From Pseudomonas lalucatii (GTDB lineage: Bacteria; Pseudomonadota; Gammaproteobacteria; Pseudomonadales; Pseudomonadaceae): DNA of 64,000 nt. Position 1 is the stretch's first letter. The number at the start of each line of letters is the position of its first letter. The notes beneath the pieces were generated by a model, which worked only from the letters and a program-made list of their open reading frames with translations, ran no database searches and was not told the origin of the DNA. The stretch lies in the NCBI RefSeq assembly GCF_018398425.1, contig NZ_JADPMV010000001.1, positions 1,922,001 to 1,986,000 of the forward strand, read 5' to 3'. Made by a program: the position numbers and the translations under genes. Of the stretch, positions 39,903-60,627 are shown piece by piece.

Positions 39903-39946
39903 TAGTCCCCTCGGACGATGTTGCCGGGCCAAGCCGTTGCAAGAAT
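39903..39946 (+). promoter_or_regulatory. Cluster operator/promoter A (before hsaB)
   Basis: TAGTCC-CCTC-GGACGATG (39903-39920) is followed after 20 bases by AAGAAT (39941-39946). No -35 box is seen. It is the first of seven copies of this module; it lies 76 bases before the flavin reductase gene in the divergent hsaA/hsaB gap. Confidence 0.75.
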
Positions 39947-39995
39947 CCATCACACGCCATGCACCAGCAGCCGTGCACAACAAGAGGGCCGTGCG

Positions 39996-40508
39996 ATGAA
40001 CCCAGTCGATCTGAAAGCCGAGATGCTCCAGGCCATGCGCCGCCTGGCCAAGTCGGTGACCATCATCACCACCAGCAACGGCAACGAGCGTTTCGCCATG
40101 TCCGCCACCGCGGTCGACTCGCTGTCCACCGAACCGCCGTCGCTGCTGATCTGCGTCAACCAGACCGCCTCGCTGCACGCGGTGCTGGATGCCGGCGCGG
40201 ACTTCTGCGTGAACATCCTCGGCCTCGAGCAGGAAGAGCTGTCGCAGCTGTGCAGCGGCCCGATCAAGGGCGAGGCGCGTTTCCAGCGCGGCAACTGGCG
40301 CACCAGCGAAGGCGGCATCCCCTACCTGGGCGATGCGCAGTCGGCCATCCTCTGCCGCCAGGACGGCAAGTTCAGCTACGGCACCCACAGCATCTTCATC
40401 GGCCGTATCCAGCAGATTCACAACGGCGCCGAAATCAGCCCGCTGGTCTACCTGGATGGCGGCTACACCACCACCGCACCGGCGCCGACCCTCGCGGCGG
40501 CCGGTTGA
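39996..40508 (+). CDS. hsaB: Flavin reductase, HsaB/TesA1-like
   Basis: A 170-residue NAD(P)H:flavin reductase of the HpaC/HsaB family (AMRRLAKSVTIITTSNGNERFAMSATAVDSLSTEPPSLLICVN, with GTHSIFIGRI near 130). It would supply reduced flavin to the HsaA-type monooxygenase encoded on the other side of operator A. It starts a plus-strand run hsaB - KstD-like - SDR - kshB with very short gaps, so the four are probably one operon. Confidence 0.87.
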   Translation: MNPVDLKAEMLQAMRRLAKSVTIITTSNGNERFAMSATAVDSLSTEPPSLLICVNQTASLHAVLDAGADFCVNILGLEQEELSQLCSGPIKGEARFQRGNWRTSEGGIPYLGDAQSAILCRQDGKFSYGTHSIFIGRIQQIHNGAEISPLVYLDGGYTTTAPAPTLAAAG

Positions 40509-40518
40509 GGCGCGCGGC

Positions 40519-42198
40519 ATGACGGCGACAGAGGCGCTTGCCCCCCTGCGGGTGGACGCTGCCGAGGCGCTCGGCTGGGACGAGTGCGCCGAGTTGCTGG
40601 TGGTCGGCTTCGGCGGCGCCGGAGTCTGCGCGGCCATCGAGGCAAGCGACCGCGGCCTCTCGGTGCTGGCCCTGGAGCGCTTCGCCGGCGGCGGCGCCAC
40701 CGCGCTCAGCGGCGGCGTGGTGTATGCCGGCGGCGGCACCCCCTACCAGCAACAGGCCGGTTACAGCGACAGCGCCGATGCGATGGTCGCCTACCTGCGC
40801 CAGGAAGTCGGCGAGGCGGTGTCCGCCACTACCCTGCGCGACTTCTGCGAACGCAGCTGCGCGCAGCTGGCCTGGCTGGAGCGCCAGGGCGCCGCCTTCG
40901 AGGCCAGCGTGCCGCCGCACAAGACCTCCTACCCGAGCGACCAGTACTACCTCTATTACTCCGGCAACGAGGCGGTGCCGGCCTATGCCGCCCAGGCCGC
41001 GCCGGCGCCGCGCGGGCACCGCAGCAAGGGCCCGGGGATGTCCGGCGCCAGCCTGTTCGCCGCCCTGAAAAACGCCGCCCTCAGCCGCGGCGTGCGCCTG
41101 CGCCAGCAGTGCGAGGTGCGCCGCCTGGTCCTCGGCCCCGGCGACGAGGTGCTCGGCGTCGAGGCCTGGCAGCTGCCGCCCGACAGCCGCGCCGCGCGCT
41201 GGCATCGGCGCCTGAGCCGCTGGGCCACGGCCATCCATATGTACGCCCCGCCCCTGGCCGAGCGCTTGCGTGCGCGGCTGCGGCGGATCGAGCTGGGCCA
41301 TGCCGAACGCCGGCTGATTCGCGCCGAGCGCGGCGTGCTGCTGAGCGCCGGCGGCTTCATCTTCAACCGCGCGATGATCACGCGCTACGCGCCGCAGTAC
41401 CTGGCCGGCCTGCCGCTGGGCACCACGGGTTGCGACGGCAGCGGCATCCGCCTCGGCCAGGGCGCCGGCGGCGCCCTGGCGCGCATGGACAAGGTCAGCG
41501 CCTGGCGTTTCATCAACCCGCCGCTGGCCTGGGCCCGTGGCCTGATCGTCAACGACGCCGGCCAACGCTACTGCAACGAAGAGGTCTACGGCGCCACCCT
41601 GGGCCACGCCATGGTCGAGGAACAGGGCGGCCGCGCCATCCTCATCCTCAATAAGGCCCTGCTCCGCGAGGCGCTGCGCCAAGTCGGGCCGGGCAAGGTC
41701 TGGCAGTTCCAGCGCCTGCCGGTGCTGCTCAACCTGCTGTGCAACGCCAAGCGTGGGGCCAGCCCGGCGGCCCTGGCCGAACGCTGCGGCCTGCCGGTAG
41801 CCAATCTGGAACGGGCCCTGGCCGACTACAACAGCTCCGCCCGCGGCGAGACGGCCGATTCCTTCGGCAAATCGGCGGCCATGCTCGCCTCGCTGGAGCA
41901 AGGGCCCTGGTACGCCATCGACCTGTCCTTCGACAGCAAGCTGTTCCCCTGCCCGGCCATCACCCTCGGCGGCTTGCGGGTCTGCGAGCGCAGTGGCCAG
42001 GTGCTGGACGCTGCCGGCGCCCCCATCGCCGGGCTGTACAGCGCCGGACGCAATGCCGTGGGCATCGCCTCCAACCTCTATGTGTCCGGCCTGTCGCTGG
42101 CCGACTGCGTGTATTCCGGCCGTCGCGCCGCCGCCCACCTGGCGAACCAGATTCAACCCGCAACCGCCCGATCAGGAGAACAACAATGCAACGAGTAG
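40519..42198 (+). CDS. FAD-dependent 3-ketosteroid dehydrogenase-like protein, possibly delta4-(5alpha) type
   Basis: A 559-residue flavoprotein of the fumarate reductase/KstD superfamily. The FAD site LVVGFGGAGVCAA is at about 32-44, the GGGATALSGGVVYAGGGTP segment follows near 60-78, and the C terminus has GLYSAGRNAVGIASNLYVSGLSLADCV. The SGNE and PAPRGH-type segments around residue 150-170 recall 3-oxo-5alpha-steroid 4-dehydrogenases rather than KstD. It would introduce a double bond into ring A. It overlaps the next SDR gene by 13 bases. Exact specificity is an inference. Confidence 0.75.
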   Translation: MTATEALAPLRVDAAEALGWDECAELLVVGFGGAGVCAAIEASDRGLSVLALERFAGGGATALSGGVVYAGGGTPYQQQAGYSDSADAMVAYLRQEVGEAVSATTLRDFCERSCAQLAWLERQGAAFEASVPPHKTSYPSDQYYLYYSGNEAVPAYAAQAAPAPRGHRSKGPGMSGASLFAALKNAALSRGVRLRQQCEVRRLVLGPGDEVLGVEAWQLPPDSRAARWHRRLSRWATAIHMYAPPLAERLRARLRRIELGHAERRLIRAERGVLLSAGGFIFNRAMITRYAPQYLAGLPLGTTGCDGSGIRLGQGAGGALARMDKVSAWRFINPPLAWARGLIVNDAGQRYCNEEVYGATLGHAMVEEQGGRAILILNKALLREALRQVGPGKVWQFQRLPVLLNLLCNAKRGASPAALAERCGLPVANLERALADYNSSARGETADSFGKSAAMLASLEQGPWYAIDLSFDSKLFPCPAITLGGLRVCERSGQVLDAAGAPIAGLYSAGRNAVGIASNLYVSGLSLADCVYSGRRAAAHLANQIQPATARSGEQQCNE

Positions 42199-42941
42199 AA
42201 GGCAAGGTCTGCATCATCACCGGCGCCGCCAGCGGCGTCGGCCGCGAGGACGCCCTGCTGCTGGCCAGCGAAGGCGCCAAGGTGGTGCTCACCGACCTCA
42301 ACGAGGAGGCCGGCCGCCAGGTCGCCGCCGAGATCGGCGAGCACGCCCTGTTCATCCGCCAGGACATCGCCAGCGAAGCCGACTGGCAGAACGTGATCAA
42401 GCTCACCCTGGAGCGTTTCGGCCGTCTCGACGTGCTGGTCAACAACGCCGCCATCCTGGCTCTGGGCAGCATCGAGGACACCAGCCTGGAGCTGTGGCAG
42501 AAGGTGCAGCGGATCAACAGCGAGGGCTACTTCCTCGGCTGCAAGTACGGCGTGCAGGCGATGAAAGAAACCGGCGGCGGCTCGATCATCAATATGTCTT
42601 CGGTGGCGGCCCTGGGCGGCATGCCGCTGTTCTGCGCCTACTCGGCGTCCAAGGGCGCGGTGGCGGCCATGAGCCGCTCCATCGCCCTGCACTGCAAGCA
42701 GCAGGGCTACCGCATCCGCTGCAATACGGTGCACCCGGACGGCATCAACACGCCTATGACCCAGGCCCTGACCGGCGGCCAGGCGATCCCCCAGGAGACC
42801 CTGGACCAGGACCCGCTGAACCGCATGTGCGCGCCGCGCGATATCGCCAACCTGGTGCTGTTCCTCGCCTCGGACGAGTCGCGTTTCATCAATGGCAGCG
42901 AGCTGCGGGTGGACAACGCGCAGCTGATCAGCGGCCTGTAA
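42186..42941 (+). CDS. 3beta/17beta-hydroxysteroid dehydrogenase-like SDR
   Basis: A 251-residue classical SDR. NAD-binding TGAASGVG near 12-19, NNAA near 88, catalytic Ser and YSASK near 150-156. The run KQQGYRIRCNTVHPDGINTPM and the end LASDESRFINGSELRVDN closely parallel the Comamonas testosteroni 3beta/17beta-hydroxysteroid dehydrogenase as I recall it. It probably oxidises a hydroxyl of the sterol nucleus. Translationally coupled to the upstream flavoprotein and 13 bases before kshB. Confidence 0.85.
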   Translation: MQRVEGKVCIITGAASGVGREDALLLASEGAKVVLTDLNEEAGRQVAAEIGEHALFIRQDIASEADWQNVIKLTLERFGRLDVLVNNAAILALGSIEDTSLELWQKVQRINSEGYFLGCKYGVQAMKETGGGSIINMSSVAALGGMPLFCAYSASKGAVAAMSRSIALHCKQQGYRIRCNTVHPDGINTPMTQALTGGQAIPQETLDQDPLNRMCAPRDIANLVLFLASDESRFINGSELRVDNAQLISGL

Positions 42942-42954
42942 AGCGGAGGTGAAC

Positions 42955-44049
42955 ATGGGCACCCAGCAGCTGCACCTGACTCCGTCCGAGCAGCCTGTGA
43001 CCGGCAGCTACCGGCTGCAGGTGGCCGAGGTAATAGACGAAACGGCCGACGCCCGCTCGCTGGTGCTGCGGGTGCCGGCCGAGCTGCACGAACGCTTCGC
43101 CTACAAGCCGGGGCAGTTCCTCAGTTTCCGCGTGCCCTACCAGGGCAAGCTGCTGACCCGCTGCTACTCCATGGCCAGCTCGCCGCACTGCGACGCCCTG
43201 CCCAAGGTGACCATCAAGCGGGTCGCCGACGGCCGGGTGTCCAACTGGATGAACCAAGAGGTGCAGGCCGGCGACTGGCTGGAAGTGCTGCCGCCGGCCG
43301 GTCATTTCTGCTTGAACGAGAGCCACCTGGATGACGGCGACAACGAACTGCTGCTGTTCGGCGGCGGCTCGGGCATCACTCCGGTGTTCTCCATCCTCAA
43401 GTCGGCGCTGCGTACCACCCAGCGACGGATCAAGCTGATCTACGCCAACCGCGACGAAGCCTCGGTGATCTTCAAGGACGAACTGCGCCAATTGGCCAAG
43501 GCCAACGGCGAACGCCTGCAGGTGGTGCATGTGCTGGACTCGGTGCAGGGCTTCCTGACCGCCGCCGAGGTGCGCCAGCTGGTGCGCGGCCATGCCGGCG
43601 CCGAATTCTTCATCTGCGGCCCCGGGCCCTTCATGGACACGGTAGAGGGCACGCTGCTGGATCTGGGCGTGGCGTCGGCGCGCATCCATGTCGAGCGTTT
43701 CGTCTCGCCGCCCGATCCGGACCAGCTGCAGGCGCAGCAGGCCGAGGCGCGCGCGGCCAGCCTCGATTCGAGCTGCGCAAGCCTGACCGTGGAGCTGGAT
43801 GGTCAGCGCCACGAGATTCCCTACCAACCCGGCGACACCCTGCTGCAGAGCTGCAAGGCGGCCGGTCTGGCGGTGCCCTCCTCGTGCGAGGAAGGCTTCT
43901 GCGGCGCCTGCATGTGCCGGGTCGAGGAAGGCGAAACCCGGCTGGCGCGCAACGACGTGCTCAGCGCCGCAGAACTGGCCGCGGGCTGGACCCTGGCCTG
44001 CCAGAGCCGGCCGAGCAGCGCGCAGCTGCGGGTGAAGTTCCCCGATTGA
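42955..44049 (+). CDS. kshB: 3-ketosteroid 9alpha-hydroxylase, reductase component KshB
   Basis: A 364-residue ferredoxin-NAD reductase: FAD domain (QVAEVIDETADARSLVL near 21-37; RCYSMASSP near 67-75), NAD domain (GGGSGITPVFSI near 140) and a C-terminal plant-type 2Fe-2S domain with C311, C316, C319 and C349. The order and several stretches (IYANRDEASVIFKDELR, FICGPGPFM) match actinobacterial KshB. It passes electrons from NADH to KshA, encoded 13.5 kb away. ATG at 42955 has GGAGG 6 bases upstream and is preferred to GTG at 42949. Confidence 0.9.
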   Translation: MGTQQLHLTPSEQPVTGSYRLQVAEVIDETADARSLVLRVPAELHERFAYKPGQFLSFRVPYQGKLLTRCYSMASSPHCDALPKVTIKRVADGRVSNWMNQEVQAGDWLEVLPPAGHFCLNESHLDDGDNELLLFGGGSGITPVFSILKSALRTTQRRIKLIYANRDEASVIFKDELRQLAKANGERLQVVHVLDSVQGFLTAAEVRQLVRGHAGAEFFICGPGPFMDTVEGTLLDLGVASARIHVERFVSPPDPDQLQAQQAEARAASLDSSCASLTVELDGQRHEIPYQPGDTLLQSCKAAGLAVPSSCEEGFCGACMCRVEEGETRLARNDVLSAAELAAGWTLACQSRPSSAQLRVKFPD

Positions 44050-44080
<31 letters not shown>

Positions 44081-44173
44081 GAGTGTTAGCTCCTTTTCCC
44101 CGGCTCAGGCCGGGCTTTTCTGCGCCCGCCACAACGGGCAACGGCCTGTCGCCAATATGACCTTCCCCTGGCT

Positions 44174-44217
44174 TAGTCTCAATGGACGATCACCGACGGC
44201 CGCGCTGTGGTTAGACT
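44174..44217 (+). promoter_or_regulatory. Cluster operator/promoter D (before SDR-fadD3)
   Basis: TAGTCT-CAAT-GGACGATC (44174-44191) and TAGACT (44212-44217) 20 bases later. It lies 69 bases before the SDR gene at 44260. Confidence 0.7.
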
Positions 44218-44259
44218 CCGCACGAAGAACCTACTCACAACAATAAAACGAGGTGCGTA

Positions 44260-45003
44260 ATGGCACGATTGCAGAACAAGGTGGCGGTGGTTACGGGTGC
44301 CGCTTCGGGTATCGGCCTGGCCTGTGCCCGGCGCTTCGCCGAGGAAGGCGCACAGGTGGTGGGGCTGGATATCGGCGCCGCGCCGGCGGAGTTTCCCGGT
44401 CTGTTCATGAGCCTGGACGTGCGTGACGAGGCGCAGATCGAGCAGCTGATGAGCGAGATAGTCGGCCGCTTTGGCCGCCTGGATGTGCTGGTCAATGCCG
44501 CCGGCATCGCCGACCAGGGCAGCGTTACCGCCACCAGCACGGCCAACTGGCAACGGGTGCTGGACATCAACCTGACCGGCAGCATGCTCACCAGCAAGTA
44601 CGCCCTGGCGCCGATGCTGGCCCAGCGCAGCGGCTCGATCATCCATATCGGCTCGATCTTCGGCCTGCAGGGCTGCGACAACAACGTCGCCTACAACGTG
44701 GCCAAGGGCGGCATCAACCAGCTGACCCGCTCCATGGCCATCGACTACGGCCATGCCAATATCCGCGTCAACGGCCTGTGCCCCGGGCTGATCGATACGC
44801 CTATGACCTCCATGGTCCGCGACAATCAAGCCTTCCATGCCTACTTCGCCTCGCAGCACATGCTGTGCCGCGCCGGGCAACCGGAGGAAGTGGCCAACGT
44901 CGCGCTGTTCCTCGCCTCGGACGAGGCCAGCTTCGTCAGCGGGCAGATGATCGCGGTGGATGGCGGTTTCTCCGCCGGCCGGCGTTTCGCTCCGCCGCAG
45001 TAA
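44260..45003 (+). CDS. Short-chain dehydrogenase/reductase
   Basis: A 247-residue classical SDR with TGAASGIG near 12-19, NAAG near 83, a catalytic Ser in HIGSIFG and YNVAKGG (Tyr/Lys near 146-150), and the C-terminal VDGGFSAG. Substrate unknown; in this cluster a hydroxysteroid or a hydroxyacyl intermediate of side-chain or C/D-ring degradation is plausible. First gene after operator D and 74 bases before the fadD3-like ligase gene. Confidence 0.85.
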   Translation: MARLQNKVAVVTGAASGIGLACARRFAEEGAQVVGLDIGAAPAEFPGLFMSLDVRDEAQIEQLMSEIVGRFGRLDVLVNAAGIADQGSVTATSTANWQRVLDINLTGSMLTSKYALAPMLAQRSGSIIHIGSIFGLQGCDNNVAYNVAKGGINQLTRSMAIDYGHANIRVNGLCPGLIDTPMTSMVRDNQAFHAYFASQHMLCRAGQPEEVANVALFLASDEASFVSGQMIAVDGGFSAGRRFAPPQ

Positions 45004-45077
45004 GCCCGCCTCCGCGGGCCGGACGCCCTGCCCGGCCCGCTGCCCCTTTGCCCTGATCCTCTGCCCGAGGAGGTGCC

Positions 45078-46652
45078 ATGTCGCCCGTCGAATCCACCAC
45101 CATTCCGCAACTGCTGGCCAATGCCTCCCAGGCCTTTGGCGACAGCCCGGCCATCGTCGACGGCGGCCGGCGCATCGGCTACCGCGAACTCGACCGGCTG
45201 CGCCAGCAGGCCGCCTATGCCCTGCTCGCCCTGGAGATCCAGGCCGGCGAGCGGGTGGCGATCTGGGCACCGAACATCTGGGAATGGATAGTCGCCGCCA
45301 GCGCCCTGCACAGCGTCGGCGCGGTGCTGGTGCCACTGAATACGCGGATGAAAGGCAGCGAGGCGGCCTTTGTCTTGCGCGAGAGCGGCGCCAGCCTGCT
45401 GTTCTCAATAGGCGAATTTCTCGGCGTCGACTACCCACGTCAGCTGGACGGCGAGCACTTGCCGGCGCTGCGCCAGATCGTCTGCCTGCGCGGCAGCGCG
45501 GCGGATTGCCTGGACTGGGCCGAGTTTCTCGCCCTCGGCCGCAATGTCCCGGCCGCCGTGCTGGCGCGCCGTCAGGTGGCGGTCACGGCGCAGTCGCTGT
45601 CCGACCTGCTGTTCACCTCCGGCACCACAGGCCGGCCCAAGGGGGTGATGACCGAGCACGGACAGAACCTGCGGGTGGTGCGTGACTGGAGCGAGGTGGT
45701 CGGCCTGCGCCAGGGCGAGCGCTACCTGATAGTCAATCCGTTCTTTCACTCCTTCGGTTACAAGGCCGGCTGGCTGGCGGCGCTGATGCGCGGCTGCTGC
45801 ATCTACCCGCAGCAGGTGTTCGACGTCGAACAGCTGATGGCCTGCGTGGCCCGCGAGCGGATCAACGTGCTGCCGGGGCCGCCGACCCTCTATCAGTCGC
45901 TGCTGGCCCACCCCGAACGCAGCCAGTACGACCTGTCCTCGCTGCGGGTGGCGGTGACCGGCGCCGCGGCGATTCCGGTGCAGATGATCCAGCGCATGCG
46001 CGACGAACTGGGCTTCGCGACCATAGTCACCGCCTACGGCCTAACCGAGGCCTGTGGTTTCGCCAGCATCTGCCGCCCCGGCGACCCGCCCGAACTGGTC
46101 GCCAACAGCAGCGGCCGGGCCATGCCCGGCGTCGAGCTGTGCTGCGTGGACGCCGAGGGCCGCCGCCTGCCGCCGGGCCAGGCCGGCGAGGTGCTGGTGC
46201 GCGGCTACAACCTGATGCGCGGCTACTTCAACGACCCCCAGGCCAGCGCCGAGGCCCTGGACGCCGACGGCTGGCTGCACACCGGCGATATCGGCGTGCT
46301 CGACGAGCAGGGCTACCTGCGCATCACCGACCGGCTCAAGGACATGCTGATCACCGGCGGCTTCAACGTCTACCCGGCGGAGATCGAGCAGTGCCTGCTG
46401 CGCTACCCGGGCCTGGCCCAGGTCGCGGTGATCGGCATCGCCGACGAGCGCCTCGGCGAGGTGGCCATGGCCTTCCTGCTGCCGACCCCCGGCCGCACCA
46501 TCGAGGCGTCGGCCGTGCTCGCCTGGTGCCGCGAGCAACTGGCCAACTACAAGGTGCCGCGCCGGGTGCAGGTGGTCGAGGCCCTGCCGCTGAACGCCGC
46601 CGGCAAGGTGACCAAAAATGTCCTGCGCGAGTGGGCGGCCGCCGCAGTCTGA
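45078..46652 (+). CDS. fadD3: FadD3-like acyl-CoA synthetase (HIP-CoA ligase)
   Basis: A 524-residue ANL-family ligase. AMP-binding P-loop LLFTSGTTGRPKG near 178-190, NPFFHSFGYKAGWLA near 218, GPPTLYQSLL, TAYGLTEACG near 318, WLHTGDIG near 395 and the C-terminal catalytic Lys in NAAGKVTK near 513. The FFH-FGYKAG and GPPTIYQSLL-type stretches are those I recall from M. tuberculosis FadD3, which activates the C/D-ring indanedione propionate (HIP) with CoA. Follows an SDR under operator D. Confidence 0.82.
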   Translation: MSPVESTTIPQLLANASQAFGDSPAIVDGGRRIGYRELDRLRQQAAYALLALEIQAGERVAIWAPNIWEWIVAASALHSVGAVLVPLNTRMKGSEAAFVLRESGASLLFSIGEFLGVDYPRQLDGEHLPALRQIVCLRGSAADCLDWAEFLALGRNVPAAVLARRQVAVTAQSLSDLLFTSGTTGRPKGVMTEHGQNLRVVRDWSEVVGLRQGERYLIVNPFFHSFGYKAGWLAALMRGCCIYPQQVFDVEQLMACVARERINVLPGPPTLYQSLLAHPERSQYDLSSLRVAVTGAAAIPVQMIQRMRDELGFATIVTAYGLTEACGFASICRPGDPPELVANSSGRAMPGVELCCVDAEGRRLPPGQAGEVLVRGYNLMRGYFNDPQASAEALDADGWLHTGDIGVLDEQGYLRITDRLKDMLITGGFNVYPAEIEQCLLRYPGLAQVAVIGIADERLGEVAMAFLLPTPGRTIEASAVLAWCREQLANYKVPRRVQVVEALPLNAAGKVTKNVLREWAAAAV

Positions 46653-47064
46653 CCCAGTCCCAGCAGCGCAGCGGCCTGAGGAGGCAGAACCCATGAGCCG
46701 CCCCTGCGCCATGCGCGAAGCCGGGCTGCGCCTGGGGAGCGCAGCCCGGCATCCTGCACCCCTCAGACAGCGCCGAAAGCCGCCTCGAACGCGCCGGCGA
46801 AGCTCCTGCCACCTCACGCTCGGCCGCCAGGGTCTCGGCCTTGAGCATGTCGGCGGCGTCCCCCTCGCACAACTCGGCGAAAGCCGGGCTGGTATGGATG
46901 AAGTCTAGGGGGCGGCGACGAGGAGAAGTTCCAGCGCAACCTGACGGCGATGCTGGACAGCTGCAAGCGTTTCCTCGACTTCGACAAGATCGATGTAGTG
47001 CCCACCAGCCAGTACCCGATCAAGCTGCCGACGGCGGTCTGAGACCAGGTGGCGAGGCCTGCGC
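46653..47064. pseudogene. Intergenic region with decayed coding remnants
   Basis: No intact gene. On the plus strand 46902-47042 reads 46 codons ending LPTAV-stop, with protein-like content (FQRNLTAMLDSCKRF) but no start and an in-frame stop just before. On the minus strand about 46905-46755 reads a protein-like stretch (CEGDAADMLKAETLAAE) that needs a frame change to reach a natural end (FAGAFEAAFGAV). Both look like leftovers of lost genes; I cannot name the families. Confidence 0.4.
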
Positions 47065-47098
47065 AACAACCGACGGGCCCTAGGGCCCGTCGGTTGTT
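47065..47098. terminator. Strong bidirectional terminator
   Basis: A perfect 16-bp stem, AACAACCGACGGGCCC-TA-GGGCCCGTCGGTTGTT, separates the plus-strand fadD3 unit from the convergent SDR-kstD unit. Confidence 0.85.
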
Positions 47099-47104
47099 TG
47101 CACT

Positions 47105-47983: not shown

Positions 47984-47998
47984 GGGCAGCTCCTGAGG

Positions 47999-51595: not shown

Positions 51596-51618
51596 AGCCT
51601 CTGACGGAGGAATCCAGC

Positions 51619-53189: not shown

Positions 53190-53209
53190 CCGCCTGGCGG
53201 GCCTTTTTT
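53190..53209 (+). terminator. Terminator-like hairpin after DUF1302-DUF1329 unit
   Basis: CCGC-CTG-GCGG followed by GGCC and TTTTTT. A short stem but with a good T-run; it also lies close upstream of the SurE-like gene. Confidence 0.55.
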
Positions 53210-53242
53210 GCCCTTCGGCTAAACCCTGTGGAGACAATAACA

Positions 53243-54232
53243 ATGAGAAACCTGCTAGCCACTTCACTGACCCTGGTCGCCGTGTCCCTGGCGCCGTCGG
53301 CCCATGCCCTGAACATCTTGCTGACCAACGACGACGGTTGCCGCGCCCCCGGTATCGCCGCGGTGCACCAGGCCCTGATCGCCGCTGGCCATCAGGTCAC
53401 CCTGGTGGCCCCGGCGCTCGACAACAGCGGCATAGGCGCGGCCAGCGTGGTCAGCCCCGGCCAGGCCCTGGCGGTGACCGAACTGGCCCCCGGCAAGTAC
53501 TGCGTCGGCGCGCCTGCCGAGCATGCCCCGGAGCATGGCAAGAACGGCGCCATCGGCACCCCGGTGGACGCGGTCAACCTCGGCCTCGACCTGCTGCTCA
53601 AGGACAATCCGCCGGACCTGGTGGTCTCCGGCACTAACTTCGGCGACAACGTCGGCCCGCTGACGCAGATGTCCGGCACGGTCAACGCCGCCGTACGGGC
53701 CATGTTCAAGGGGGTGCCGGCGATCGCGGTGTCCACTGGCATCGACCTCGAACTGATCATGCGCGACCGCCAGGCCGGATACCTGAAGACCCTCAACGCC
53801 CTGGACGACACCGCCAACTTCGCCGTCAAGGTGATCGACAAGGCCAGCGCGGAAGGCGCCAAGGCCAAACAGCAGTGTGTTAAGAGCGGCGGCAAGGCCA
53901 AGCCGTTCTGCGAACTGAACGTACTCGGCCTGCCCGGCACCACGGGGCTGAACATCAACTACCCGGCCCGTGAGGCCGGTGAGGTGCAAGGCGTCAGTTA
54001 TGCGCCGATCGGCGACTGGGGCATGGTCGGCTTCCAGACCCAGCGTGGCGGCGACGGTGTGGTCCGGGTCAATCTGGCGCCACCGCCGACGCCAACCGCC
54101 GAGCAGCAGCGGGCGGATGCCTACCAGCTGTTCACCGGCAAGGCGGTGATCACCGTCATCGACGGCAATATGAGCGCCCCCGAAGCCCTGCAGCAGCAAG
54201 CCAAGCAGATGCTCGAGGGCCTGACCCCATAG
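53243..54232 (+). CDS. Exported SurE-like phosphatase
   Basis: A 329-residue SurE-family protein. ILLTNDDGCRAPG (metal-binding Asp pair), the Ser of DNSG near 63 and VSGTNFGDNVG (metal-binding Asn) are the SurE active-site motifs. Unlike housekeeping SurE, it has a Sec signal (MRNLLATSLTLVAVSLAPSAHA) and so acts in the periplasm. SurE removes phosphate from nucleoside monophosphates; the substrate here is unknown. No operator is seen upstream; it follows the DUF1302/1329 unit by 244 bases. Well-placed strong terminator downstream. Confidence 0.82.
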   Translation: MRNLLATSLTLVAVSLAPSAHALNILLTNDDGCRAPGIAAVHQALIAAGHQVTLVAPALDNSGIGAASVVSPGQALAVTELAPGKYCVGAPAEHAPEHGKNGAIGTPVDAVNLGLDLLLKDNPPDLVVSGTNFGDNVGPLTQMSGTVNAAVRAMFKGVPAIAVSTGIDLELIMRDRQAGYLKTLNALDDTANFAVKVIDKASAEGAKAKQQCVKSGGKAKPFCELNVLGLPGTTGLNINYPAREAGEVQGVSYAPIGDWGMVGFQTQRGGDGVVRVNLAPPPTPTAEQQRADAYQLFTGKAVITVIDGNMSAPEALQQQAKQMLEGLTP

Positions 54233-54262
54233 GTCCGCCATGAGTTGATGCCCTGGAAAGTC

Positions 54263-54302
54263 AGAAGGCCCCTGCCGGCTTGCGGCAGGGGCCTTCTTTT
54301 TG
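54263..54302 (+). terminator. Terminator after SurE-like gene
   Basis: A 15-bp perfect stem AGAAGGCCCCTGCCG-GCTTG-CGGCAGGGGCCTTCT followed by TTTT. Confidence 0.9.
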
Positions 54303-54348
54303 GCTATGTACCCGTTATGTGTTGCACGGAGCCGGAGTTCTTTGTCGC

Positions 54349-54405
54349 AGCCAGCTTGCTGGCGATCCCTCTCACAGCGGAAAGCATCGCCAGCAAGCCG
54401 GCTCC
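54349..54405. repeat. REP-like inverted pair
   Basis: AGCCAGCTTGCTGGCGAT (54349-54366) and ATCGCCAGCAAGCCGGCTCC (54386-54405) face each other. The cores GCTTGCTGGCGAT/ATCGCCAGCAAG(C) and the CTCCTAC end are those of Pseudomonas REP elements. Confidence 0.7.
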
Positions 54406-54463
54406 TACAGACGCTGTGTCTTGGCCTGTTAGCCATTGCAACAACCAATCGGGACATGGCCTA

Positions 54464-54502
54464 AAACCAAGCCCCGGCAGCGTACGCGCCGGGGCTTGGT
54501 TT
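54464..54502 (-). terminator. Terminator of the RibBA-like gene
   Basis: AAACCAAGCCCCGGC pairs with GCCGGGGCTTGGTTT around a 9-base loop; T-run on the minus strand. It lies 43 bases after the end of the RibBA-like gene. Confidence 0.8.
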
Positions 54503-54544
54503 ATTGTTGCGCCGCCGCAACCAAGCGGATGCGGCGCTAGAGAC

Positions 54545-55654
54545 TCAGTCGGCCAGGGCCTGGAAGGGAACGAACTCCACCACCTCCAGCTCGAAGCCGG
54601 CTACCGCCTTGTAGGGTACCGGCGAACTCAGCAGGCGCATCTTGCGCACATTGAGGTCGCGCAATATCTGCGCGCCTATGCCCAGGGTGCGCTGGGCAAA
54701 CTGCGGCGGCCGCGGCTTGCCCGCGCTCTGCTGGCACAGTTGCTCGAACAGGCCGTCCGGGGTCTCCCGCTGGGCCAGCAGCACCACCACCCCGCTGCCC
54801 TCGGCCGCTATCTGGGCCATGGCGCGGTCCAGGTTCCACTGCGCCGGCCCGCTCTCGGGCTCGCAGCCCAGGGCATCGCGCAGGGTCTCGACCGCCTGCA
54901 CCCGCACCAGGGTGGGCCTATGGCTGTCGACTCGGCCTTTGACCAGGGCCAGATGCAGTTGCCCCCGATACGCATCCTGGTAGGTCAACACACGAAACTC
55001 GCCATGCCGGGTACGCAGCGGGTATTCGCCGGAATGCTGGATGCAGCCTTCGTGGAGGATGCGGTAGTGGATCAGTTCGGCGATGCTGCCGATCTTCAGC
55101 CCATGCTGCTGGGCGAACTGCAGCAACGTCTCGCCCTGGGCCATTTCGCCGGCCTCGTCGAGGATGCTGACCAGGATGGCCGCCGGCAATAGACCGGCCA
55201 GGCGAGTCAGGTCGCACGCCGCCTCGGCCGGGCCGGCACGGTTCATCACCCCACCCGGCTGCGCCTGGATCGGGAAGATATGCCCGGGTTGCACCAGATC
55301 GCCGGGGCGGCTGGCCGGGTCCACCGCGACCTGCACCGAACGCGCCCGATCGGCGGCCGAGATGCCGGTACTGACCCCCTCGGCCGCCTCGATCGAGACG
55401 GTGAAGCCCTGGCCGTGCGGAGCCCGCGAATGAGGCACCATCAGCCCGAGGCCGAGTGTCCGGCAACGCTCCTCGGTGAGCGCCAGGGAGATCAGCCCGC
55501 GGGCCTGCACGGCCATGAAATTGATCGCCTCGGCGTCGACCTGTTCGGCCGCCATGAGCAGCACGCCGTCGGTGTGCTGCTCGTCGTCGCTCAGCACCAC
55601 CATCTCGCCGTGACGCAGAGCCTCGAGCAGCTCCTGAATACTGTTCAACTGCAT
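54545..55654 (-). CDS. RibBA-like protein lacking catalytic residues
   Basis: A 369-residue protein with the fold order of RibB (about 1-200) and GTP cyclohydrolase II (about 205-365). The RibB half keeps TGFTVSIEAAEGVSTGISAADRA-like and GHIFPIQAQPGGV segments, but the substrate/metal loop DDEDRENEGD is replaced by DDEQHTDGVL and the catalytic GHTEA is GPAEA. The GTP cyclohydrolase half lacks the zinc cysteines. It is therefore unlikely to make dihydroxybutanone phosphate. It ends a minus-strand unit SDR-esterase-RibBA-like. A role linked to flavin-rich steroid metabolism is only a guess. Confidence 0.75.
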   Translation of the reverse strand: MQLNSIQELLEALRHGEMVVLSDDEQHTDGVLLMAAEQVDAEAINFMAVQARGLISLALTEERCRTLGLGLMVPHSRAPHGQGFTVSIEAAEGVSTGISAADRARSVQVAVDPASRPGDLVQPGHIFPIQAQPGGVMNRAGPAEAACDLTRLAGLLPAAILVSILDEAGEMAQGETLLQFAQQHGLKIGSIAELIHYRILHEGCIQHSGEYPLRTRHGEFRVLTYQDAYRGQLHLALVKGRVDSHRPTLVRVQAVETLRDALGCEPESGPAQWNLDRAMAQIAAEGSGVVVLLAQRETPDGLFEQLCQQSAGKPRPPQFAQRTLGIGAQILRDLNVRKMRLLSSPVPYKAVAGFELEVVEFVPFQALAD

Positions 55655-55664
55655 GCCAGACCTC

Positions 55665-56591
55665 TCAATTCAAAGCCGCGCGCAGATCGGCGGCAGCGGC
55701 GCTCAGGGCTTCGCCGGCGCGCTCGACGAACGGCGCCATGCTGACGAAGCCGTGGATCATGCCGTCATAGCGCTGCAGACGGCAGGCCACGCCAGCCTGC
55801 TGCAGGCGCTGGGCCAAGGCCTCGCCCTCGTCGCGCAGCGGGTCGAACTCGGCCGTGATCAGAGTCGTTGGCGGCAGGCCGCTCAGGTCTTCGGCCAGCA
55901 GCGGCGAAGCCAGCGGGTCATCGCGCTGTTCGGCACGTTCCAGGTACTGCTGCCAGAACCACTGCATCTGCGCCCGGCTGAGGAAGTAGCCCTCGGCGAA
56001 TTGCCCATAGGAGTCGCTGCCACAGCGCCCGTCGGTGACCGGGTAGAACAGGCACTGATAGGCGATGCGCGGCCCGCCTTGCGTGGCCGCCAGGCGGCTC
56101 ACCGCCAGCGCCAGGTTGGCTCCGGCGCTGTCGCCGGCCAGGGCCAGGCGGTTGGCATCGACGCCCAGCGCCTCGGCCTGCTCGACCAGCCAGCAGGTGG
56201 CGCGGTAGCAGTCCAGCGGCGCCGCCGGGAACTTGGCTTCCGGCGCCAGGCGATAGGCCACCGACACCACCGCGGCGCCGCTCTGTTTGGCCAGGGCGCG
56301 ACACAGATTGTCATGGGTATCCAGAGTGCCGATGACGAAACCGCCGCCGTGGAAGAACACCAACAGCGGCAGGTTCGCCTGGTCCAGCGGCCGGTACAGG
56401 CGGGCGTCCAGCTCGCCGGCGGCGCCGGCTACGCGCAGCTCGCGGACCTCGGCCATGGGCTCGCCGGGGATAGGCGGCATCAGGTTGTCGGAGAACTGCC
56501 GGTAATCTGCAGCGTGGAGCCGACCGAAGTCGGGCTCGGGCAGGCCACTGAACTGCTGCAGTACCGTGGCGATCTGCTTATCCAGCGACAT
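55665..56591 (-). CDS. Alpha/beta hydrolase of the hormone-sensitive lipase family
   Basis: A 308-residue esterase. The oxyanion-hole motif HGGGF is near residue 80, the nucleophile is in GDSAGAN (GxSxG, Ser near 153), the acid is in FDPLRDEG near 250 and the His in GMIHGF near 280. Family members hydrolyse esters of hydrophobic alcohols; here a steroid ester or a ring-opened lactone is possible. ATG at 56591 overlaps the SDR stop, so it is coupled to that gene. Confidence 0.87.
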   Translation of the reverse strand: MSLDKQIATVLQQFSGLPEPDFGRLHAADYRQFSDNLMPPIPGEPMAEVRELRVAGAAGELDARLYRPLDQANLPLLVFFHGGGFVIGTLDTHDNLCRALAKQSGAAVVSVAYRLAPEAKFPAAPLDCYRATCWLVEQAEALGVDANRLALAGDSAGANLALAVSRLAATQGGPRIAYQCLFYPVTDGRCGSDSYGQFAEGYFLSRAQMQWFWQQYLERAEQRDDPLASPLLAEDLSGLPPTTLITAEFDPLRDEGEALAQRLQQAGVACRLQRYDGMIHGFVSMAPFVERAGEALSAAAADLRAALN

Positions 56592-57423
56592 GGCTAGCTC
56601 CTGGCTCATCGGCCGCAACGAATTGGAACACCGGGTTGCTCTCCTCCAGCACGCTCTGCACCCGGCGCTGCAGGGCCGGCTTGAATAACTTGTGCGGGAG
56701 TATCCAGAAGCGCTTCTCGGCAATGGCGGCGAACACCAGTTCGGCCAGCCGCAGCGGGGTCATGCCCTGACGGATGCTGGCGTCGAGCAGCTGGTTGAGT
56801 TGCGCGCCGGCGACCCCTTCGACCTGGTCGGATGCCATGATTTCGCTGGCCACCGGCCCCGGGCAGAGCACCGACACCGACACGGATGCCTGCAACTGGC
56901 TGAGTTCGTAGTGCAGGGTTTCCGAGAGCGCCACCACCGCCTGCTTGGTCACGTTGTAGGGCGCCATCAAAGGGCTGCTGAGCAGGCCGGCGAGCGAGGC
57001 GGTATTGATCACATGGGCCGGGCGACCCTGGGCCAGCAGCAGCGGCACGAAACTGCGGATGCCGTTGATCACCCCGTCCAGGTTCACCCTGAGCATGCGC
57101 TGCCACTGGGCGTGGCCGATCTCCCAGCAGTGACCGGTCTGCATCACCCCGGCATTGTTGAACAGCAGATCGACGCCGCCGCAACGCGCCACCGTGAAGT
57201 CGCGCAGGCACTCGACCTGGGCCGGATCGCCGACATCGGCGACGCAGGCGTGGGCCTCGGCGCCGCGGCCTTGCAGCTCGGCGCACAGCGCCAGCAACCG
57301 CGGCTCATCCACATCGCTGAGCACCAGGCGCATGCCCAGCCCCGCGGCGTATTCGGCCAGGCCGCGGCCAATGCCGCTGGCCGCTCCGGTGATCACCGCC
57401 ACGCGGCCCTGTTCACTGCTCAT
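56578..57423 (-). CDS. Short-chain dehydrogenase/reductase
   Basis: A 281-residue SDR with TGAASGIGRGLAE near 12-24, NNAG near 92, catalytic Ser in NTASLAG and YNVTK (Tyr/Lys near 157-161). Its longer C terminus ends in a Lys/Arg-rich helix. It resembles many dehydrogenases in lipid and steroid clusters; substrate unknown. ATG at 57423 has AGGAG. First gene of the minus-strand unit that diverges from kshA across operator C. Confidence 0.85.
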   Translation of the reverse strand: MSSEQGRVAVITGAASGIGRGLAEYAAGLGMRLVLSDVDEPRLLALCAELQGRGAEAHACVADVGDPAQVECLRDFTVARCGGVDLLFNNAGVMQTGHCWEIGHAQWQRMLRVNLDGVINGIRSFVPLLLAQGRPAHVINTASLAGLLSSPLMAPYNVTKQAVVALSETLHYELSQLQASVSVSVLCPGPVASEIMASDQVEGVAGAQLNQLLDASIRQGMTPLRLAELVFAAIAEKRFWILPHKLFKPALQRRVQSVLEESNPVFQFVAADEPGASHVAG

Positions 57424-57481
57424 GCTCGACTCCTGCTGAAAGTGGTAGCGCAACCAGTAGAGCCGCCCAGGCCGGGCCGGC

Positions 57482-57526
57482 CATCGTCCATTCAGACGAT
57501 GCCCCACGCTGTGGGCGTTGCAGAAT
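57482..57526. promoter_or_regulatory. Cluster operator/promoter C (between SDR unit and kshA)
   Basis: CATCGTC-N6-GACGATG is a perfect inverted repeat (57482-57501). On the plus strand CAGAAT (57521-57526) follows after 19 bases, before kshA. On the minus strand TCTACT (57461-57456) follows after 20 bases, before the SDR unit. It may serve both directions. Confidence 0.75.
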
Positions 57527-57606
57527 CCGTAACGTGCACCAGCGCTGCCCCAGGTTTGCCTGAGCCTGCGCCAGCCCAATCAGCAACGCCTGCGGAGAAC
57601 AACAAG

Positions 57607-58650
57607 ATGAGCACCCTGCATCGCATCGAAACGCGCCAACTCGAAGACCGTTACGCCCGTGGCTGGCACTGCCTCGGCCTGGCATCCCACTACCGCGACG
57701 GCAGGGCCCACCGCCTGGACGTGTTCGGCACCCGCCTGGTGGCCTTCCAGGGCGAGGACGGCGAATTGCATGTGCTCGACGGCTACTGCCCACACATGGG
57801 CGCCGACCTCAGCCAGGGCTGCGTCGAGGGCAACTCGCTGCGCTGCCCCTTCCACGCCTGGCGCTGGGGCGCCGATGGCGTGTGCGACGATATTCCCTAC
57901 GCCAAGCGCATCCCGCCACGGGCCAAGATCAAGAGCTGGCCGCTGATGGAGGAGAACCAGCTGCTGTTCGTCTGGAACGACCCGGAAGGCAACCCGCCGA
58001 TCGCCGAGCAGCGCATCCCGCGCATCGCCGCCTGCTTCGACGACGAGTGGGCCGACTGGGAAGTGGCCGAGCTGCAGATCGCGACCAACTGCCGCGAGCT
58101 GATCGACAACGTCGCCGACATGGCGCACTTCGGCACCGTGCACGGCGCCCCGGTCGAGGCATTCAGCAACGTCTTCGAGGGCCATAGGGCGACCCAGATC
58201 ATGCGGGCGCGCAGCGAACGGCTGTCCGGCGACAGCGAGCTGAGCACGGTGGCCACCTACTTCGGCCCGGCCTACCAGATCACCGAGATGACCGGCGAAA
58301 TGGACGGGCAGCCGATCCACTCGATCCTGCTCAACTGCCATGTGCCGATCGACCTCAACAGCTTCACCCTGCGCTACGGCGTGCTGGTGAAGAAGATCCC
58401 CGGACTCAGCGACGCACAGAACAGCGCCATGGCCAAGGCCTACGTGCAGCAGGCGCAGGCCGCCTTCTACGAGGACGTGGCGATCTGGCACAGCAAGACC
58501 CGGGTCGACAACCCGCTGCTGTGCGACGGCGACGGTCCGGTCTACCAGCTGCGCAAGTGGTATGCGCAGTTCTACAGCGACGTCGCCGCGCTGCCGGCCG
58601 AACTCGGCGAGCGCAAGGTGTTCGCCGTACGCAGCCCGGAGCCGGCCTGA
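57607..58650 (+). CDS. kshA: 3-ketosteroid 9alpha-hydroxylase, oxygenase component KshA
   Basis: A 347-residue Rieske non-haem iron oxygenase. The Rieske ligands are C61, H63, C80 and H83; the iron site is D171, H174 and H179 in DNVADMAHFGTVHG. Long stretches agree with KshA of M. tuberculosis as I remember it (RYARGWHCLG, LDGYCPHMGADLS, SFTLRYGVLVKK, WHSKTRVDNPLL, YQLRKWYAQFY). It hydroxylates 3-ketosteroids at C9, which with delta1-dehydrogenation breaks ring B. Electron donor KshB is encoded at 42955. Sits under operator C, divergent from an SDR unit. Confidence 0.93.
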   Translation: MSTLHRIETRQLEDRYARGWHCLGLASHYRDGRAHRLDVFGTRLVAFQGEDGELHVLDGYCPHMGADLSQGCVEGNSLRCPFHAWRWGADGVCDDIPYAKRIPPRAKIKSWPLMEENQLLFVWNDPEGNPPIAEQRIPRIAACFDDEWADWEVAELQIATNCRELIDNVADMAHFGTVHGAPVEAFSNVFEGHRATQIMRARSERLSGDSELSTVATYFGPAYQITEMTGEMDGQPIHSILLNCHVPIDLNSFTLRYGVLVKKIPGLSDAQNSAMAKAYVQQAQAAFYEDVAIWHSKTRVDNPLLCDGDGPVYQLRKWYAQFYSDVAALPAELGERKVFAVRSPEPA

Positions 58651-58705
58651 AAACGCGGGATGGCGGCAGCCCCTGGTGCCATCCCGCCGCCCTCTAGCCT
58701 GGGCG

Positions 58706-58735
58706 TTGCACTCGGCAGAAGGCGCCGTTTATGCT
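58706..58735 (+). promoter_or_regulatory. Possible constitutive promoter of the LuxR regulator
   Basis: TTGCAC (58706-58711), 18-base spacer, TATGCT (58730-58735), 39 bases before the start. No copy of the cluster operator is present here. Confidence 0.4.
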
Positions 58736-58774
58736 CGGGGGCCGACACTGCATAAAAATAACAACGGTACCCCT

Positions 58775-59905
58775 ATGGCACGCACTCTCAGCCTCGAGAC
58801 GTTCAGCGAGTTGCTCGGCAATCTCTATCAGGGACCGCTGGAGACTATTCCCTGGGCCAGCTTCCTCAACCAGCTCAACCTGCACCTGGACAGCAAGTAC
58901 GTCACCTTCATCCTGCGGCCGCCGAGCCAGCACGACAGCGGCCTGATGGTCAACACCACCGGCACCTCGGCCGAGGCCACCGCCTCCTACAACCAGCACT
59001 TCTTCACCCTCGACCCCTTCGTCGACCTGCCCAACCGCCAGGTCGTCACCCTCGCCGAATTCGTCTCCACCGACGACTGGCTGAATTCCGAGTTCTACAA
59101 GAACTTTCTCGAACCCGTGGACGTGTTCCACATCCTCGGCGCCGACATCAACACCAGCGACGGTGCGCAGTGCCGCATCCGCATCAGCCGCGGGCGCGCC
59201 AGCCCGGCCTTCGACGACACCGACAAGGCGCTGCTGGCGCAATTCATCCCGCACCTGGAGCGCTCGATCAAGATCCATATGCAGCTCAACCGCATCGAGA
59301 CCGAACGCAACCTGTATGCCGGCGCGGTCGACCAGATGGCGGTGGGCACCATCATCCTCGACGAGGCCGGCAAGGTGCTGCAGACCAACCAGGTCGCCGA
59401 TCTGCTGCTGCAGGACAAGGACGGCCTCAAGCTGGTCAACGACGGCCTGCAGGTCGGCACCACGCGCGACACCCAGGAGTTCCGCCGCCTGGTCAAGCAG
59501 TCGCTGCTGTCGCAGAAGAGCGGCACCCCCTCGGTGGTCGAGGCGTTGCGCGTGCAGCGGCCGTCCGGGCGCGCCGACCTGGGCATCATCGTCCGCTCGG
59601 TGCCGCTGTCGGCCTGGAGCGAGGGCAAGCAGTGCCCGGCGGTGGTGATCTTCATCAGCGACCCGGAACAGCAGTCCAGCGCCCCCCAGGAGATCGTCCG
59701 GGCGCTGTTCGACCTCACCCCGGCCGAGACCCAACTGGCCATGCTGCTGGCCAACGGTCTGACCCTCGACGAGGCCTCGGAAGAGCTGGGCATCAGCCGC
59801 AACACCGCGCGCGCACACCTGCGCTCGACCTTCTCGAAGACCGGGGTGACCCGCCAGACCATGCTGGTGCGTCTGATCCTGCGCAGCGTGGCGACCCTCG
59901 GTTAA
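58775..59905 (+). CDS. LuxR-family transcriptional activator, TesR/TeiR-like
   Basis: A 376-residue regulator with an unassigned N-terminal sensor part (about 1-190), a PAS-like middle (AVDQMAVGTIILDEAGKVLQTNQVADLLL, about 190-300) and a C-terminal LuxR helix-turn-helix (LTPAETQLAMLLANGLTLDEASEELGISRNTARAHL, about 310-365). Size and layout match the testosterone-inducible TeiR/TesR type of Comamonas as I recall it. It lacks a receiver domain, so it probably senses a steroid or metabolite directly. It is the only transcription factor in the cluster part of the window and thus the candidate for the repeated operator. Confidence 0.85.
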   Translation: MARTLSLETFSELLGNLYQGPLETIPWASFLNQLNLHLDSKYVTFILRPPSQHDSGLMVNTTGTSAEATASYNQHFFTLDPFVDLPNRQVVTLAEFVSTDDWLNSEFYKNFLEPVDVFHILGADINTSDGAQCRIRISRGRASPAFDDTDKALLAQFIPHLERSIKIHMQLNRIETERNLYAGAVDQMAVGTIILDEAGKVLQTNQVADLLLQDKDGLKLVNDGLQVGTTRDTQEFRRLVKQSLLSQKSGTPSVVEALRVQRPSGRADLGIIVRSVPLSAWSEGKQCPAVVIFISDPEQQSSAPQEIVRALFDLTPAETQLAMLLANGLTLDEASEELGISRNTARAHLRSTFSKTGVTRQTMLVRLILRSVATLG

Positions 59906-59909
59906 GCGC

Positions 59910-59953
59910 TAGTCCGCATGGACGATGGCGGGGTGGGCGCTGACGCGCAGAGT
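59910..59953 (+). promoter_or_regulatory. Cluster operator/promoter E (before nudE)
   Basis: TAGTCC-GCAT-GGACGATG (59910-59927) and CAGAGT (59948-59953) 20 bases later, 41 bases before the Nudix gene. It starts 4 bases after the LuxR stop codon. Confidence 0.75.
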
Positions 59954-59994
59954 GTCATCACCGAGACACCCTCCCCACGCACAGGGGCCACACC

Positions 59995-60543
59995 ATGCGC
60001 AGCTGTCCGACCATCCTGAAAACCGAACTGCTGGCCGAAAGCGGCTACTTCCAGATCGAGGCCCTGCACCTGCAATTCAGCAACGGCCAGCAACGGGTCT
60101 ACGAGCGCCTGCGCGGCACCGGTTACCGCTCGGTAATGCTGGTGGCGCTGCCCGACCCGGAGCATGTACTGCTGGTGCGCGAGTATGCGGTGGGCGTGGA
60201 ACGCCAGGTGCTCGGCCTGCCCAAGGGCGGCGCCGAACCGCACGAGAGCTACCTGCAGGCGGCGCAACGCGAGCTGATCGAGGAGGTCGGCCTGCGCGCC
60301 GAGCGCCTCACCGAGCTGGGCGAACTGACCCTGGCGCCCGGCCACCTGTGCCATAGCTGCCAGGTGATCCTCGCCGAACAGTTGAGCCCCTGCTACCTGC
60401 CGGGCGACGAACCCGAGCCGCTGGAGCTGATTCGCCTGCCGCTGAGCCAGATCGGCGAGCTGGTGGCGCACGGCGAACTGCACGAGGCCCGCGCCATCGC
60501 CGCCTTGTTCATGGCCCTCAGCGCCCTCGCCCGGCGCGCCTGA
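59995..60543 (+). CDS. nudE: NudE-type Nudix hydrolase
   Basis: A 182-residue Nudix protein. The Nudix box GGAEPHESYLQAAQRELIEEVGL (near 81-103) matches G-x5-E-x7-REUxEExGU exactly. Similar to E. coli NudE, which cleaves ADP-ribose, NADH and Ap3A-type compounds. Its promoter carries operator E, so it appears to be part of the steroid regulon; NAD-rich oxidation steps may explain the need to clean up nucleotide by-products. Confidence 0.88.
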   Translation: MRSCPTILKTELLAESGYFQIEALHLQFSNGQQRVYERLRGTGYRSVMLVALPDPEHVLLVREYAVGVERQVLGLPKGGAEPHESYLQAAQRELIEEVGLRAERLTELGELTLAPGHLCHSCQVILAEQLSPCYLPGDEPEPLELIRLPLSQIGELVAHGELHEARAIAALFMALSALARRA

Positions 60544-60583
60544 AGCAGCGCCGAAACGCCGTCTATCGTCCGCCTCCGCGGCC

Positions 60584-60627
60584 TAGTCCATTCGGACGAA
60601 GCCCGCCGCATGGTCGCCGCCTAAGGT
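60584..60627 (+). promoter_or_regulatory. Cluster operator/promoter F (before 56-residue peptide)
   Basis: TAGTCC-ATTC-GGACGAAG (60584-60601) and TAAGGT (60622-60627) 20 bases later, 82 bases before the small gene at 60710. Confidence 0.7.

Follow-up and report, generated by a model that had tools for sequence, protein, structure and literature searches.

A repeated dyad operator in the steroid cluster of Pseudomonas lalucatii and its probable reader, a TeiR-type LuxR activator

The steroid cluster of Pseudomonas lalucatii contains a repeated promoter element, the dyad TMGTC-N6-GACGA followed by a -10-like hexamer, which is very probably the operator of a LuxR activator of the TeiR/TesR type and which would form a class II promoter together with that hexamer. 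The element was recognized in a window of 64,000 nucleotides (contig C1, bases 1922001-1986000, of a 4.58-Mb genome in two contigs). The right half of this window and about 20 kb past its end encode the 9,10-seco steroid cluster; the next 55 kb were therefore fetched as well, and sites past base 64000 are numbered as if the window continued. In the literature searched, the operator and the regulon described here have no precedent, and the activator is of a known kind. Binding by the LuxR protein, the nature of the ligand, the positions of transcription start and the activation of the units in this strain are what we infer from the sequence.

Seven sites had been claimed by a first-pass annotation of the window, and all of them exist, with zero to two mismatches to TAGTCC-N4-GGACGATG (Table 1). 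No mismatch is found in the sites at 39903 (plus), 49857-49874 (minus), 49907 (plus) and 59910 (plus), one in the site at 60584 (plus) and two in those at 44174 (plus) and 57484 (plus). The gene order agrees with the statement that all seven point at units of the steroid cluster. The coordinates given were mostly right, the positions 49875 and 49908 being each one base off. Position 57482, taken as a plus-strand start, begins the minus-strand face of its site, the plus face of which begins at 57484. It had been overlooked that this site is symmetric and faces two divergent genes, and that four more copies lie past base 64000. The core half (1-36 kb, taken as housekeeping genes) had been described as free of copies, which is correct except for a match with one mismatch in nusA at 1265. 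A matrix built from eleven sites was scanned over 119 kb. Twelve matches reach at least 23.0 bits (eleven places, one counted on both strands), and all of them lie between called genes, the intergenic share of the cluster being 12%. After these the score falls to 18.3 and 16.0, for matches inside genes.

The copies are confined to the cluster, provided that the pattern is defined narrowly enough. At up to three mismatches the window contains 21 matches, compared to 4.63 +/- 2.20 (largest number 11) in 100 shuffles. In the whole genome all five perfect copies of TAGTCC-N4-GGACGATG and eight of the ten with at most one mismatch fall inside C1:1961903-2006228. Copies with up to two mismatches had to be rejected as noise (102 matches versus 100 for the reversed pattern). 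Since this tolerance in the earlier consensus is at noise level genome-wide, a refined pattern was needed. The refined pattern TMGTCYNNWYRGACGWWG has ten exact matches in the 4.58-Mb genome, every one of which lies in the steroid cluster; with one mismatch allowed there are 16 matches, 12 of them in the cluster, and 14 for the reversed pattern. As TMGTCYNNWYRGACGWWG was refined on these same cluster sites, the informative part of this result is that it has no exact match elsewhere. A whole-genome motif search had been proposed in the first-pass annotation, with many copies in unrelated genes as the outcome that would speak against the module; the exact pattern is found in the cluster only.

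The promoter anatomy was studied on a larger set. In 50 loci encoding a relative of the LuxR protein (992,253 bases) the matrix gave 288 matches, versus one each in reversed and in Markov-shuffled sequence. Together with the twelve own matches this made 300 promoters, from which flanks at least 60% alike were removed to leave 125 non-redundant ones. Beyond the operator the conserved columns of these flanks are those of a TAnAnT-like hexamer at offset 39-44 from the site start. The best -10-like hexamer begins at offset 38-40 in 95 of the 125 flanks. An A at 40 together with a T at 44 is present in 77, compared to 15 and 17 when the pair is slid by one base and at most four at the other slides up to ten. 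The hexamer thus follows the operator at a near-fixed 20 nucleotides. The gap noted earlier is thereby borne out, its range for the seven sites being 19-21 and not 19-22 nucleotides. By the convention used here transcription begins seven bases after the -10 hexamer. Because of this and the near-fixed -10 spacing, the centre of the dyad is placed at about -41.5 of the putative start in the 125 flanks, which is in line with the approximately 42 bases proposed before. It had also been said that the inspected copies have no -35 box. The slot is not empty but holds the operator's own xTGxCx. In the -35 slot (offset 16-21) stands the ATGnC of the operator, which fits TTGACA poorly, with a mean of 2.74 matches out of six; the highest mean, 3.30, is reached at offset 10, a position that is part of the dyad and at too great a distance from the -10. 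A site centred near -41.5 that overlaps the -35 slot is what defines a class II activator site, and this is what is found here, with the start predicted from the -10. The predicted layout is that of a class II activator promoter.

The proposed binder is the only protein with a match to a DNA-binding family among 44 of the 45 called cluster genes, of which 43 were scanned by Pfam and one more by NCBIfam; g070, which spans two fetched loci, was left out. It has no full-length relative in the genome besides itself, and two further matches span the helix-turn-helix (HTH) region alone. At E <= 0.001 only HTH-type families match this protein, and neither an autoinducer-binding domain nor an N-terminal receiver domain was matched. 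Its gene is adjoined by kshA and has hsa-type genes on both sides, i.e. it lies within the 9,10-seco steroid cluster. Among 298 genomes of the genus, which are related to one another and therefore not independent, 52 encode a relative of the LuxR protein (E <= 1e-40) and 52 contain at least two exact copies of TAGTCYNNNNGGACGATG. These groups share 51 genomes; G614 has the protein only and G462 the copies only. A single exact copy is found in six more genomes, which are LuxR-negative. The reversed pattern occurs once in ten genomes and twice in none.

The following observations speak more strongly for the LuxR protein as the binder than this co-occurrence does. LuxR paralogues of about 70% identity in G665 and G593 are accompanied by sites of their own in regions that contain no hsa genes; this points to a steroid regulon that was duplicated and specialised. 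Exact sites in G632 and G644 stand before operons of the hsaC and hydratase types, at a distance of hundreds of kb from the luxR gene. The recognition helix of the site-less but LuxR-positive G614 reads NTARTHLRA, while the aligned proteins from site-bearing genomes have NTARAHLRS or NTARAQLRS; this is a single case. Finally, two Rhodospirillales loci with LuxR relatives of 44-46% contain one strong site each, between fadD3 and a luciferase-like gene.

The TeiR/TesR activator of proteobacterial steroid degradation has been known since 2004 (reference in PMC6895838), and TeiR is reported to be required for growth on testosterone (PMC6895838). The window protein shares 39% identity over 372 amino acids with TeiR of Comamonas testosteroni, C-terminal HTH included (E 2e-99). 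A protein with 97% identity to TeiR is encoded in one further genome, G280, which we infer from this to be of the Comamonas type. For G280, 17 exact copies of TMGTCNNNNNNGACGATG are listed, nine of them at 2.756-2.926 Mb. With one mismatch allowed the whole genome gives 147 matches, versus 71 for the reversed pattern, and this looser form is therefore noisy. TAGTCTCAATGGACGATG stands about 70 bp upstream of tesB/hsaC and is followed after 20 nucleotides by CAAAAT. Sites with the same spacing also precede hsaA, a DUF1329 gene, an SDR pair and an SDR-MaoC-thiolase unit with the TeiR gene as its last member; the last of these sites may indicate autoregulation.

Genes of G280 were paired with C. 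testosteroni JLU460ET by gene order in Table 4 of PMC10637631. The genes matched in this way to operator-bearing units rise by log2 4.2-8.3 after 3 h on testosterone. For hsaC 8.25, for hsaA 7.63, for the SDR gene GM003937 6.90, for GM003919 5.35 and for the LuxR gene GM003916 4.88 are reported, and for the divergent pairs GM003898/3899 and GM003903/3904 the values are 4.52/4.69 and 5.82/4.23 (PMC10637631). The XRE gene GM003938, which lies beyond the last site, is unchanged on testosterone (PMC10637631). Spacing, confinement to the cluster, LuxR co-occurrence and induced Comamonas counterparts together support the first-pass annotation, which had suggested a module of the class II activator type and the LuxR protein as its candidate binder. 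The regulon would, in addition, extend about 20 kb past the end of the window.

We propose that a dimer of the LuxR protein binds TMGTC-N6-GACGA at about -41.5, where it would cover the -35 slot, and that in response to a steroid or a catabolite it would recruit the sigma-70 polymerase. Most of the steroid cluster would then be switched on in concert, the kshA-luxR unit included, and through this unit the regulator itself would probably be switched on too.

Several observations weigh against this proposal. No good site faces the operon from 72243 (minus), hsaA (39699, minus) or the gene at 38242 (minus), and the site at 72344 has a poor -10 and faces a 63-amino-acid open reading frame (ORF) and a TPR-type gene. 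KshA_C matches with E < 1e-60 occur in 51 of the 298 genomes, all of which are LuxR-positive. As strong KshA matches and LuxR coincide, the co-occurrence in the genus cannot tell LuxR from another cluster-linked factor. This KshA cut was set by us; with the cut-off of Pfam itself 71 of the 298 genomes would be counted, the 20 additional ones having weaker matches, which were taken for other Rieske proteins. G043 has steroid genes and a 47% LuxR protein with the same helix core, and no site was found in 19.5 kb; G045, with a 36% LuxR relative, has one weak site. At the loci of distant LuxR proteins a simple dyad count gave nothing clear. Seven LuxR-negative genomes contain eight exact copies of the looser pattern, two of which score like true sites (26.6 in G520 and 22.4 in G573). 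Seven of the eight fall inside an ORF of at least 100 amino acids, but in GC-rich DNA this counts for little. The site that precedes the luxR-containing unit of G280 has a matrix score of no more than 11.0. Most genes of the region in the JLU460ET table are induced, which makes the agreement with the sites rather unspecific. Induction is also reported for ksi and hsdA (6.67 and 7.44), yet the expected G280 stretch 2793001-2812500 is without a site. TeiR has, moreover, been described as a membrane protein with a polar location and kinase activity, unlike the simple picture drawn here (PMC8399759, among others).

In an unlikely alternative the operator and its use by an activator hold, but a different protein binds it, such as a NarL-type response regulator which is encoded elsewhere and receives its signal from the hybrid histidine kinase at 33135-36080. 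That kinase adjoins the cluster, the joint travel of LuxR and strong KshA matches leaves the binder unnamed, and a single site-like copy is present in each of two LuxR-negative genomes. On the other hand, no second DNA-binding family was matched among the scanned cluster genes, the LuxR paralogues are accompanied by their own sites, and the recognition helix is altered in the site-less G614. TeiR, moreover, is reported as necessary for testosterone growth (PMC6895838), and the genome with a 97% TeiR shares the operator. Still less probable is a role of the repeat in repression that steroid would lift. Repressors of hydroxysteroid dehydrogenase genes are reported in C. testosteroni, one of them of the LuxR type (PMC8700777), but the homologue TeiR is described as a positive regulator (PMC6895838, PMC8700777, PMC8399759). 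Furthermore, the dyad is near-fixed at -41.5 and appears to stand in for a consensus -35, so that no strong promoter would be left for a repressor to act on.

The near-fixed distance to a second element and the GGAC core are also reminiscent of the -35 element of an alternative sigma factor of the extracytoplasmic function (ECF) type, a reading to which we give hardly any credence. The -10 is sigma-70-like and lies 22 nucleotides from GGACGA, a gap which was compared with the usual spacing of ECF elements. The core is part of a dyad that can be read in both directions between divergent genes, and the scanned cluster genes gave no match to a sigma factor, apart from a weak HTH cross-match of the LuxR protein itself.

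If the repeat is the operator of the LuxR activator, TMGTC-N6-GACGA could further be one directional operator code of TeiR-type steroid activators in Pseudomonas, Comamonas-type bacteria and some Alphaproteobacteria. We offer this as a tentative idea which has the balance somewhat against it. The promoter-proximal half would be GGACGATG, whose TG and following C would fill the -35 slot; the distal half would be TAGTCC in one-way promoters, and a symmetric site would stand between two induced divergent genes. Of 174 asymmetric sites, 172 have the -10 on the GATG side, and 18 have one on the other side as well. In 41 of 42 loci the kshA/SDR site takes the symmetric form CATCGTC-N6-GACGATG, and that distal half is present in 8 of 197 other sites. 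This count covers 45 of the 50 loci, as L091, L121, L125, L128 and L129 have a different gene order. Two TCGTC-type sites in G280 lie between divergent genes which match induced pairs. There are exceptions. Although hsaA and hsaB are both induced in JLU460ET, the site of this pair is one-sided; most nudE sites carry TCGTCC as their distal half; and in G280 the plus face at 2821243 lacks a -10-like hexamer where the spacing would place it. If the code is true, a change of the distal TAGTCC to CATCGTCC would add divergent activity only where a -10 is present.

The proposed arrangement resembles that of the lux-box and NarL/FixJ-type HTH activators, for which a dyad near -42 covers the -35 slot at class II promoters. 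Class II sites of this type are dyads of roughly 18-20 bp with their centre near -42. To our knowledge TMGTC-N6-GACGA differs from the sequences of these sites, and in contrast to such activators the window LuxR has no matched acyl-homoserine-lactone or receiver domain. A single regulator over a whole steroid cluster is also found in Actinobacteria with KstR1/KstR2, and we know of no relation of their operators to the one in the window. KstR1/KstR2 are, however, TetR-type repressors (PMC8399759). A close counterpart is TeiR/TesR of C. testosteroni, a full-length homologue with the same recognition-helix core NTARAHLRS. The window gene, too, lies in a steroid cluster, and the same operator and -10 spacing are present in the genome encoding the 97% TeiR. 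A possible difference is the polar membrane location and kinase activity reported for TeiR. No operator for TeiR/TesR was found in the literature searched, outside of which lie subscription papers including that on TeiR from 2004. A text search with the letters of the motif gave, among the matches listed, papers unrelated by title. TeiR-like genes in a Pseudomonas steroid cluster are also known from Pseudomonas stutzeri Chol1 (C211_RS11295), in which deletion of one of two such genes delays cholate degradation and growth (unpublished, quoted in PMC8399759); an operator for them is not reported in the excerpts of that review.

According to the same review from 2021, little is so far known about regulatory mechanisms in bile-acid-degrading Proteobacteria (PMC8399759). 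With the operator a known kind of switch protein gains a candidate DNA target. A defined operator would make regulons readable from sequence and could serve as a promoter part for steroid biosensors. It also points to missing pathway genes, such as a 56-amino-acid ORF and a NudE-type hydrolase.

Table 1. Operator sites, the proposed binder and the units assigned to them. Positions are those of the window, continued past its end; two rows refer to other genomes.
Feature	Position	Strand	Context
Operator TAGTCCCCTCGGACGATG (39903-39920) with -10-like AAGAAT (39941-39946)	39903..39946	+	before hsaB (39996)
Operator TAGTCTCAATGGACGATC with -10-like TAGACT	44174..44217	+	before SDR (44260) and fadD3
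Operator TAGTCCCATCGGACGATG (49857-49874) with -10-like AACAAT (49830-49835)	49830..49874	-	before kstD-like gene (49753), SDR
Operator TAGTCCGCTTGGACGATG with -10-like CATAGT (49946-49951)	49907..49951	+	before DUF1302/DUF1329 genes
Symmetric operator, plus face TCGTCCATTCAGACGATG, with -10-like CAGAAT (57521-57526)	57484..57526	+	before kshA (57607), luxR downstream
Symmetric operator, minus face TCGTCTGAATGGACGATG, with -10-like TCTACT (57456-57461)	57456..57499	-	before SDR (57423)
Operator TAGTCCGCATGGACGATG with -10-like CAGAGT	59910..59953	+	before NudE-type NUDIX gene (59995)
Operator TAGTCCATTCGGACGAAG with -10-like TAAGGT	60584..60627	+	before conserved small ORF
Extra operator, beyond window	64883	-	before hsaD-E-G-F
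Extra operator, beyond window	65038	+	before SDR
Extra operator, beyond window, weak	72344	+	before 63-amino-acid ORF and TPR-type gene
Extra operator, beyond window	84211	-	before hsaC and ring C/D genes
LuxR-type regulator, 376 amino acids, C-terminal GerE HTH 314-367	58775..59905	+	proposed binder of all sites
56-amino-acid ORF, hydrophobic N-terminus, two Cys, proline-rich end of the ...LLP type	60710..60880	+	behind 60584 operator
Proposed regulated units inside window	39996..63994		hsaB-kstD-like-SDR-kshB; SDR-fadD3; kstD-like-SDR; DUF1302-DUF1329; SDR; kshA-luxR; nudE; small ORF; hsaE-hsaG-hsaF
Second LuxR gene with own operators before SDR, DUF1302/1329 genes	L159 (G665:C1:4979001-4998500)		
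Second LuxR gene with own operators before SDR, DUF1302/1329 genes	L160 (G593:C22:60001-79500)		

The cluster includes hsaA, hsaB, kstD-type genes, kshB, fadD3, DUF1302/DUF1329 genes, kshA and hsaC-G as well as genes for a CoA-transferase, an enoyl-CoA hydratase, an acyl-CoA dehydrogenase and a thiolase. The hsa/kst/tes names are due to Pfam and NCBIfam matches and similarity, together with a pathway order which we in part presume. Operons were assigned from gene order and strand; the proposed operator of the hsaE-hsaG-hsaF unit (64883) lies outside the window. Genes of the SurE, ribBA and alpha/beta-hydrolase types (53243-56591) are within the regulated span and have no site of their own. The ribBA-type gene (54545-55654, minus), with DHBP synthase and GTP cyclohydrolase II domains, perhaps plays a role in flavin supply. 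In the Pfam scan no match was obtained for g062, g063 and g071.

The 56-amino-acid ORF likewise has no Pfam match; ORFs of 54-57 amino acids which resemble it by eye are present in all nine related loci that were chosen. Behind the operator at 65038 the SDR gene (L031:3115-3887, plus) is made up of two ORFs of 163 and 82 amino acids, which match the front and the end of the SDR domain. The weak site at 72344 is followed by a 446-amino-acid protein (L031:10767-12107, plus) without a Pfam match, which belongs to a very widespread family and is named a TPR protein by some sources. The NudE-type ADP-compounds hydrolase (59995-60543, plus) is over the NCBIfam cut-off, and its gene lies directly behind luxR with an operator of its own. 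The cluster is flanked by one signalling protein at each end, the hybrid sensor kinase (33135-36080, minus) and a PAS-GGDEF-EAL protein (L032:3527-5923, minus).

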